A DNA stretch of 64,000 bases. It comes from Odontesthes bonariensis (Eukaryota > Chordata > Actinopteri > Atheriniformes > Atherinopsidae). This document shows, one piece after another, positions 13,186-16,100 of this stretch. The stretch spans positions 20,032,009-20,096,008 of the forward strand of contig NC_134517.1 of assembly GCF_027942865.1 (NCBI RefSeq). The letters run 5' to 3'. The notes beneath the pieces are model-generated. The model was not told where the DNA came from, searched no databases, and saw nothing but the letters and a program-made list of their open reading frames with translations. Numbering within the stretch: position 1 is the first letter of the stretch; every line of letters starts with the position of its first letter. Position numbers and translations under genes: made by a program.

Positions 13186-16100
13186 CTACACTAGGGGGGT
13201 AGCAGGAAAACAGAAAGAATCGTTAAGCATCTCCCTTATGATAATGAAATGTTTCTTTTCATTCCTCTCTCTTAGGCCAGAAATACACTTTGAAATTAAG
13301 ATAATGCTTAAATGTATCCAATATAATATACTGGTGAGCAGTAGGAGCAAATAAGGGATCCAACATCATTTTAGTGGCCTAACATACCATCAATTCTAAC
13401 TGCTACTGCTACTTTTTCTGCTATGGTCTGAATATTAACCAAATACCGTATAACTTTCTTAATTGTGGGCTATTTTTTTTGTTTACAGAAATCAAATTTT
13501 GAAGTGTCCTAATGGCTGGAGTGCTCAGGTGATTCCCATAGTGTAGTCCTTTGGAAGCAGACATAGTAAATACGAGAGTATGGGAACAATTCCACCCATG
13601 ACAGAGTCAGTTGCTGACATTAGCACATGGTTAAAGTGCTTTTATATTTCTGGTCTTTGTGTTCTAACAGAAAAAAACATAAATGATTTATTATCCATAA
13701 TAGCAGATATCCTGATTCCTGGTGCAAGTAAAAAGGGATAATTACATAGATTTTCACATTTTGGAACTTCCAGGCAGATGATGATATCATTATCGTTCTT
13801 AAATAAGAGGCTTTGCCAGTAGCTGGTTGGCTTTGCCTGGCAAAAAAGATTGAAGACAGAGGAGCACAGCTTGCCTTGTTCTGCCTAGGAACCAGTAACT
13901 GCACCCCAGCTGCCAGAGTAAAATACTCATATTTTACTGCTATTCCAAAAGATACATGTACAAAATTTTATCTCTCAGCAGGATACAAGTGTGTGCCTTA
14001 ACTAAAAAATAAGTTTTAAGACCATCTTTTTTCTCTCTTTCTTGCCTTTAACAACACAGTATCAGTTTTTTTTTAATCTTACACCCCCCCATTCTTTTTT
14101 GTTTACCAAATTGACCTGCTTCAGTGTATGAAAGCATCCAATATGGTCCTTCAATTTTCTGTTTGTTCCTCACAGTGTCAGTATGTAACACAGTAGGAAT
14201 TACCTTGATTTGTGTATCTGATTTGATTTGGGTTTTTCTATATGTAAAATAGCAACATTTTGCTGTGCCAGCTGGACTGAAATCTGCACTCAAGCGCCTC
14301 AAAAACTCACTGTTGAATCAATACACACAAGTAAAACTTTATTCCCTTGTGTTGTTTATCCAGCTGGATACCAAAGTGAGAGAATCTATGTTTGTATTTG
14401 TTGCATGTATTCTTGGAACGATGGATTTTATTTACTCTGTATATACAGTCAAACACAGATTACATGGAGCACTGTCCTGTTTAATCTTACCTGTGGTCTC
14501 TTTTATCTTGGGCATTCTATGACTGCTGTCCCGTTGGCTCCCGAAACTGGGCTCAGCACTGGTAGCCGCATGGATCTTCCTCAGCAGGGTGGGATCTATT
14601 GGATGGCCAGCTTTCCCCTGCACTGAGGGCCCGTAAGCCTTCTCCTCAGCAGTAACATAACTCAGCCCCTTGAGCGGGGACTCTGACAGTACATGCATAC
14701 TGTCCGTGGCACAGAGAGGAGAATCCATAGGAGTGACACAGCTGCTGCTGCCAGTGCTGCAACCAGCATCTATAGAGGAGCACTGTGAGCTTTGGAGCGA
14801 ATTAACTCCTTCACTTTGCATTGATGACATTCGCTTGCTCACATGGTATTCATATAACCGTGCGACATCTGGCTCAGACTGTGGAAGCTTTATCTGCTGC
14901 TGCTCATTATCTTGCGAAGTGGGATCACTCTCTGCGGGGACGGGCCCTTTGGCCGGGGAGAGATGATGGGCATTTAGCTGTTGGCTTATTTCATCTAAGT
15001 TTTGCTTCTCTCCCTTTGCTGTCAGCCTGTCTGCGTGGGAAGCCTGTGAGTCACTCACACATTCTGGAGCGAGATTCTCTGCCATTTTGTTTCCCGGTGC
15101 TCTCTGCTGCCATGTTTGATGCCTGTCTTTACAGTGAGTTCGCCCCAGATCAAGTTGATTCATGTAATAGGAGTCTCTCACAGTGAAAGAGTTATACTTC
15201 CCAACAAGATGAGGGAGCTCCTCTTTAGCGGAGTCTTGAGAAGTCATGTGTGATTTAGTGGAGGAATCGCATGAGTCTCCTTGGATTCTGTTCTCCATCT
15301 CCCTCTGTTTTCCTCTCGGTCTATTCATCAATGAGCCCATGTGCATCTTTGTGAAGTATTCACAAACTGATTTTGTTTCCATGGTCTCTGGTTCCATTTC
15401 GCCGCCACCTGAGTGAAAAATCTGTGAGGAGGCGACAGCAGAGGATTTCGCCTCCTCCTCCTGATTTACATCACGAGGTACGCTCACCTCTGTCTTTTCT
15501 TCATTCATGCCGTGGTATCCTTCTGCCATGGCTACATGCATTCTCAGGTGGTTCTCCGATTGTCTCTGAGCGGTGGCCAACTCGGAGCTCTCTGTCATTT
15601 CAGAGGAGTTTGTCTCATTGCCAGAATCTGAAGACTCGGGACTAAATGCTCGTGATATTTCTACACCTGTGTAACCACAGAAAGACAAAAACCTCATTAA
15701 CAATTTCAATTGAAGAACAGGGAAAAATATCAGAGTGAGTCAGCTGTAATTCATGGTAATGACAATGTAAATCAACATGTAGATGACACTGACAATAACA
15801 AATGGGAGTCGATGCATAGTATGATTCCACCCGAAATTTAGTTTAAAAAAGGTATAATCAATAGAATATTAAGGTTTTGGCAACCTTACACCTCACGGAA
15901 ACATTACCCAATTGTTTCTCTGACTTTTTAATGTTTTCACTGAAAAAAACCCCATCAATGAAACATGTTTTTTTGAAGTGTCTTTTTTTTTTCCTTGTCC
16001 TTGTGGCAAAGATAGTTAAATTCAAGTTTGTTTTCTTTTTCGCAAATGTTCGGGATGATGCTTCATGGCAAAAGTATAAACAAAAAGCAATGGCATAAAA

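Follow-up and report, generated by a model that had tools for sequence, protein, structure and literature searches.

We consider it likely that the C-terminus of FRMPD4 is set by an ancient three-way switch around a single intron with two acceptors 5 nt apart, and that in the pejerrey Odontesthes bonariensis this switch has become two-way. Splicing to the first acceptor (A) would shift the frame and yield a protein ending in ...ETTV, a class I PDZ ligand. Splicing to the second acceptor (B) would keep the frame and replace the ligand by an extension of about 420–450 residues. In the jawed-vertebrate ancestor the intron would itself have been coding (an exitron), and its retention would have produced a third, longest form with an internal ETT.

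The window, that is, the whole stretch of 64,000 nt analysed here, contains FRMPD4 of O. bonariensis on the minus strand, and the long form is the one annotated in pejerrey. Two NCBI proteins of this species, P0084 and P0085, match the joined window exons at 100% in a protein search, and the last 1135 residues of P0085 equal exons 15, 16 and 17B of the window letter for letter. P0085 (1665 aa) consists of 1244 residues through ETT and 421 residues beyond. Its PDZ, RA-like, FERM_M and FERM_C matches exceed the Pfam cut-offs and identify it as an FRMPD4 orthologue; no WW domain was found in it by Pfam at E 0.01, unlike the shark FRMPD4 P0314, which has one at its N-terminus. The relevant part of the gene is arranged as follows.

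17299..18267, minus strand: FRMPD4 exon 15, the large acidic middle region, placed by its frame and splice sites and lying within the C-terminal part of P0085 that is identical to the window; its start, gcag/GACAC, was judged by eye.
14491..15666, minus strand: FRMPD4 exon 16, ending in ...KIKETT plus the base G of the next codon, placed by its frame and splice site; the KIKETT end is kept from shark to bird in the listed proteins.
14485..14490, minus strand: the 5' splice site gtaaga, near the consensus, read from the window letters.
13186..14490, minus strand: intron 16, 1300 nt long to acceptor A and 1305 nt to acceptor B, with stops in all three frames.
11921..13185, minus strand: the coding part of exon 17 via acceptor B (ACTKL...), giving the 421-residue extension, whose last ~120 residues are weakly talin-rod-like.

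Elsewhere in the window, a perfect AGAT microsatellite of 29 copies (22162–22278) lies between FRMPD4 exons. Part of a RhoGAP gene, presumably ARHGAP6, occupies positions 62470–63740 of the plus strand, opposite to FRMPD4 (RhoGAP E 5.5e-14, 63423–63737).

On the minus strand, exon 16 ends in ...AAA GAG ACC ACA G at 14491 and is followed by gtaaga, and two AGs 5 bases apart precede the next exon, as stated in the original prediction. The acceptor region reads ...TTTTCCTGCTACCCCCCTAG/TGTAG/CTTGCACAAAG, the second part beginning with CTTGCAC, with the exon starting at 13190 (A) or at 13185 (B); the letters of the acceptor site with both AGs are CCTAGTGTAGC. Three features are located here.

13191..13192, minus strand: acceptor A (CTAG); the exon from 13190 reads GTG TAG, that is, V and a stop.
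13186..13190, minus strand: TGTAG, exonic with A (the last V and the stop) and intronic with B, its last AG being acceptor B.
13222..13226, minus strand: TTAAC, a branch-point-like pattern match with its A at 13223.

When 14491 is joined to 13190, the product ends in ...KIKETTV followed by a stop and has 1245 aa. When it is joined to 13185, the product continues as KIKETT-ACTKL... in a frame that stays open until the stop at 11921. Both outcomes had been predicted, a ...KETTV end at 1245 residues from the first AG and a long open frame to 11921 from the second, and the NCBI protein P0085 ends exactly as the latter. The pyrimidine tract is situated directly ahead of the first AG, again in agreement with the prediction; 12 of 14 positions are pyrimidines in the tract of A and 10 of 14 in that of B. 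The A of the branch-point-like TTAAC is 32 nt ahead of the end of AG A. The ETTV end of the predicted A form conforms to the class I PDZ ligand pattern (C-terminal S/T-x-hydrophobic). Both sites are probably spliced to in pejerrey. With its TAG in the apparent last exon, the A-form mRNA would escape nonsense-mediated decay.

The C-terminal forms of relatives were surveyed with two protein queries. Query 1, the end of exon 16 plus the extension, favours long forms by design, and its best 120 of 396 matches were taken; query 2, exon 16 of Polypterus only, is neutral on what follows and contributed its best 120 of 654 matches, nine of which overlap those of query 1. The resulting 231 distinct proteins (P0084–P0314) are best scorers rather than a census, are mostly computed gene models, and include no mammal. 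They were classed with an extension profile, the forms in other species being deduced from the protein letters. Among these listed relatives, 183 of 231 are spliced to B, 18 run past the donor yet keep the extension (in nine, the insert is complete and open, with 218–261 residues), eight have some other junction, seven end in ETTV, and four stop within the intron. The remaining eleven, all from birds, are cut at ETT or ETTG: these models (P0216, P0218, P0219, P0225, P0233, P0238, P0250, P0267, P0284, P0288 and P0291) halt at the edge of exon 16, with both natural ends lost. The original prediction took the extension for a new domain; it is no unrecognised one, the long form being the annotated one in those 183 proteins. 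The ETTV ends, in turn, belong to Acipenser P0205, Amia P0206, Megalops P0207, Latimeria P0211, Pithys P0227, P0280 and Cetorhinus P0311, thus spanning shark, sturgeon, bowfin, tarpon, coelacanth and birds.

Several ends are found within single species. In Cetorhinus, isoforms X8 (1337 aa) and X6 (1782 aa) do not differ over the 1336 residues that end with ETT; X8 then has V, and X6 has 446 residues. The isoforms of this shark are of three kinds, with 1, 446 and 707 residues after ETT, so all three forms are present among the models of one species, and the difference between the two longer ones (707-446) corresponds to 261 codons spliced out in frame. In Acipenser ruthenus, X6 (ETTV) matches the long X2 and X3 without a difference over a run of 1291 residues ahead of ETT; in Latimeria, P0211 (ETTV) and P0213 (long) have 773 residues in common. 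P0280, encoded by a 6015-nt contig, ends in ETTV and shows 99.8% identity over 1314 residues to the long RefSeq chicken protein P0274 (1763 aa). Its source would be a spliced transcript, since the contig carries an unbroken 3.9-kb frame of a gene with many exons. This distribution suggests a switch that dates back to the last ancestor shared by sharks and birds. The idea of one gene with two ends, put forward in the original prediction, stands in so far as the acceptors encode both ends and both are known as proteins within single species (Cetorhinus, Acipenser ruthenus, Latimeria and chicken). It has to be amended in that the choice is more than two-way, the intron itself being open and conserved in sharks, bichir and basal teleosts.

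The letters around the acceptor can be followed in other species. In the basking shark the retained form has P-S-V-A, the B form ETT-A, and the A form ETT-V-stop, from which the acceptor DNA is deduced to be CCN AG/T GTA G/CN, the same arrangement as in pejerrey, if both acceptors sit here. The bichirs provide a check: Erpetoichthys retains SVVCTE (P0204), which predicts ETTVCTE for the B form, and ETTVCTE is indeed found in Polypterus P0202. At the place of the V, codons for V, L and I (NTA before G) are the only ones that still allow GTN TAG from A. In 28 pre-filtered rows that read the intron, the S is followed, before the extension, by V in 26 cases and by L in two; the filter required S/T/A at the first place, A/V at the third and certain upstream letters, so that the V/L place alone was free. 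A laxer pattern gives S-V or S-L in 29 rows, the added one being P0174 with a different upstream part, and six deviating rows, namely P0118, P0145, P0198, P0258 and two matches at another place, inside shark extensions. P0197 (NHSVACTQ) is outside both counts. Fifteen of the 28 rows are extension-only frames starting within the intron (14 fish-like ones and P0080), where no coding reason for the conservation is known. The start of P0080, AFTEPVxGRQGGMPSAF, matches the caecilian P0307/P0308. In P0118 (Perca), P0145 (Betta), P0198 (Acipenser sinensis) and P0258 (Colinus) the V ahead of the extension stands behind N, H, C and F, and these proteins may be read as acceptor A joined from another donor, in the frame of B.

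These data bear on the possibility that percomorphs, including pejerrey, use B only, A and its TAG being a relic or rare splicing noise, so that pejerrey has no switch. We regard this as rather unlikely, but it deserves serious consideration. No percomorph is present among the seven ETTV proteins of the 231 listed, the sole teleost being Megalops; this absence is weak evidence, because query 1 favours long forms. Moreover, small shifts between tandem acceptors are often noise, according to the available part of PMC1449888. On the other hand, A is closer to the branch point than B and has the better tract. An unused AG just upstream of a used one would be expected to disappear, but the 28 pre-filtered rows still have S followed by V/L, including those with a dead exitron. 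Two of the models that seem to join A from another donor, those of Perca and Betta, are themselves from percomorphs, and ETTV ends are known from all the other lineages named above, from shark to birds. A choice between A and B remains our preferred reading for pejerrey.

The third form requires the intron to be coding. Among the listed relatives, seven species with nine proteins between them keep it as 218–261 in-frame residues: Scyliorhinus canicula, Pristiophorus, Cetorhinus (two), Erpetoichthys, Albula, Scleropages (two) and Arapaima. The nine do not include P0196, whose insert has 97 residues, or P0209, a partial model from gar that has a part of the insert. The retained peptide ends in ...LNDSLCFSxTPSVACTE or a close variant (SSLACTE in the bonytongue P0208/P0210, SVACAE in Albula, SVVCTE in bichir).

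Identities were compared, in this order, for the intron peptide, the last 240 residues of exon 16, and the extension, the last 22 residues of the peptide being omitted as they overlap the splice signals. They are 49%, 53% and 57% for Erpetoichthys/Albula; 45%, 51% and 63% for Albula/Scleropages_a; 85%, 91% and 81% for Scleropages_b/Arapaima; and 86%, 97% and 85% for Scyliorhinus/Cetorhinus. For Cetorhinus/Erpetoichthys they are 26%, 56% and 52%, and for Cetorhinus/Albula 21%, 47% and 48%; across the divide between sharks and bony fish, change is faster in the intron peptide than in the regions flanking it. In a phmmer comparison of a nine-sequence set, the shark intron peptides match two of the six bony-fish sequences, namely that of bichir at E 1e-10 to 1e-8 and, at E ~1e-6 to 6e-6, the piece from gar. 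At the protein level, the intron of sharks, bichir, bonefish and bonytongues is open in frame, a multiple of three in length and coding when retained, and it appears to be a protein-coding, conserved exitron in these groups.

One could argue that gene prediction created the intron-retained proteins by reading through a stretch that happens to be open, and that the intron has never been functionally coding. Indeed, they are computed models, an open intron of 220–260 codons can be over-called, and in this peptide the identity between shark and bony fish is only 21–26%. However, the intron stays open in all nine of these proteins, from seven species, and comparisons among bony fish alone or among sharks alone show a peptide nearly as conserved as its flanks, as in the pairs Erpetoichthys/Albula, Scleropages_b/Arapaima and Scyliorhinus/Cetorhinus. 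We consider the artefact explanation quite improbable and retain the exitron.

Following ETTG, the donor codon stands for T or I in the nine proteins with the exitron and for K in pejerrey, sea bass and Betta; judging from protein letters only, the donor of the exitron species should be GTACN or GTATH. In three birds and the tuatara, the donor codon is T though the intron is non-coding, hence the donor trend is not clean.

In pejerrey, a trace of the exitron can be recognised.

13189..13242, minus strand: an exitron remnant of 18 residues, identified by tblastn, out of frame with the extension and also holding the splice signals.

When ten insert peptides were compared by tblastn with the pejerrey intron alone, nine matched the remnant or a part of it (E 1.6e-4 to 2.5e-6), and the tenth (P0198, which has no true insert) had no match in this intron. 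With stops in all three frames, the intron of the window is itself no exitron; it reads as a descendant of a coding one. The TTAAC falls inside the 'MLND' of the remnant, and since it is branch-point-like and 32 nt from A, a part of the remnant's conservation may come from splicing alone. In our reading, the percomorph intron became a normal, strongly spliced one while its frame decayed. We would see the old exitron in different states: still coding in sharks and bichir, with its tail and splice signals kept in teleost-like and amphibian-like contigs, and frame-broken in pejerrey.

The chance of 420 open codons, given the base composition of the extension stretch, is ~1.5e-9. The extension has at least 83 database relatives at E <= 0.001 (at least 7998 candidates scored), and these related proteins reach sharks and rays, in agreement with the expectation that the downstream frame is conserved beyond pejerrey. 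In an alignment of 41 extension sequences, 16 of the 21 invariant columns are at residues 303–373 of 420. With E values up to 1 allowed, 27 of the 41 members have a weak Talin_IBS2B match in this part, the best at E 0.0011; the score of the window's own extension, 11.4, is below the Pfam cut-off of 27 bits and does not identify a talin rod helical bundle. Searches of the PDB, including a profile search, gave no sequence match of note for the extension. Two triosephosphate isomerases at E 0.18–0.19 in the profile search were judged to be chance. The kinship to talin is thus weak by sequence, and that the extension could be a helical bundle binding a partner in place of PSD-95 is our guess.

In Acanthochromis, NCBI lists the downstream frame apart, as a separate uncharacterised gene (LOC127537212, P0003), which might mean that it is not an end of FRMPD4 at all. 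We rejected this as hardly credible: the B junction joins the frame at ETT in the 183 listed proteins mentioned above, and the annotated FRMPD4 protein of pejerrey spans the junction. The extension is therefore treated here as an end of FRMPD4. It is also filed under the name TLR7 in P0070 (Larimichthys) and P0184 (Oncorhynchus); FRMPD4 and TLR7 adjoin each other in vertebrates. Further, P0073, P0074, P0076 and P0082 belong to another teleost version of the extension, which evolves more slowly; they show 36–42% identity to pejerrey and 52–62% to bonefish and bonytongue, and are probably the other copy from the genome duplication.

In the proposed scheme, the last ~15 codons of the exitron (MLNDSLCFSxTPSVA) would double as the branch point, the pyrimidine tract and the tandem AGs. 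In pejerrey, with the exitron frame broken and a strong GTAAG donor, the A/B choice would remain. The ratio of A to B may be regulated, and its outcome would be either anchoring of the PSD-95 type or an extension that may contain a talin-rod-like helical bundle. The jawed-vertebrate ancestor lived over 400 million years ago. The broader proposition, that a regulated three-way switch has operated since that ancestor, with splicing and protein codes constraining each other and lineages freezing different subsets of the forms, seems to us evenly balanced between true and false. The percomorphs would have lost the coding intron, and mammals, as far as the available parts of the papers cited below go, would have only the ligand end.

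The C-terminus of mammalian Preso/FRMPD4 is a PDZ-binding motif, through which the protein acts on PSD-95 (PMC10965980, available part); this supports the original prediction on the ligand. Disorders linked to the gene are X-linked intellectual disability, epilepsy and hearing loss, and a human disease preprint describes a variant just before the PDZ-binding motif, on NM_001368397.1 (PMC13060437). Alternative splicing is named in the available part of that preprint only in a reference about HOMER, and the same text rests on the PSD-95-binding end. Among the open-access papers searched, none on FRMPD4 and alternative splicing bears on this switch by its title or the start of its abstract, none joins exitrons or intron retention with FRMPD4, and none has a tandem acceptor together with PDZ and C-terminal; the original prediction knew of no description of the switch, and none was found among these papers.

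Mammalian FRMPD4/Preso resembles that of pejerrey in being the same gene with the same domains and a C-terminal PDZ ligand; unlike the fish gene with its two possible ends, it is described with the PDZ-ligand end alone in the available parts of PMC10965980 and PMC13060437. Exitrons, or exonic introns, as presented in the available part of Marquez et al. 2015 (PMC4484396), are similar to the FRMPD4 intron of sharks, bichir and basal teleosts, which is in-frame, stop-free and, with acceptor B, a multiple of three. Weaker splice sites are reported there for exitrons, and the same may apply to FRMPD4, whose donor letters are deduced from protein only. Unlike them, FRMPD4 adds a third product via two acceptors 5 nt apart, and in pejerrey the frame is lost, leaving a plain intron. 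Like FRMPD4, tandem acceptors of the NAGNAG kind (PMC1449888, available part) have a single pyrimidine tract followed by two AGs only a few bases apart. They differ in that the FRMPD4 shift is of 5 nt and changes the frame, its early stop produces a PDZ ligand rather than a nonsense error, and the arrangement has been kept since sharks, as far as the protein letters show.

If five bases choose between the PSD-95-binding end and the extension of 420 residues, splicing would select either anchoring or an unstudied function. In GluN1 (GRIN1), the C-terminal switch is an alternative acceptor, and the C2' end carries the PDZ ligand STVV. GluN1 C2/C2', according to the available part of PMC3365105, is like FRMPD4 in that the protein is postsynaptic and a change of splicing exchanges one end for another that is read in a new frame. 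The two GluN1 ends have 38 and 22 residues, whereas those of FRMPD4 have 1 and ~420, are selected by a 5-nt shift, and are supplemented by a retained form.
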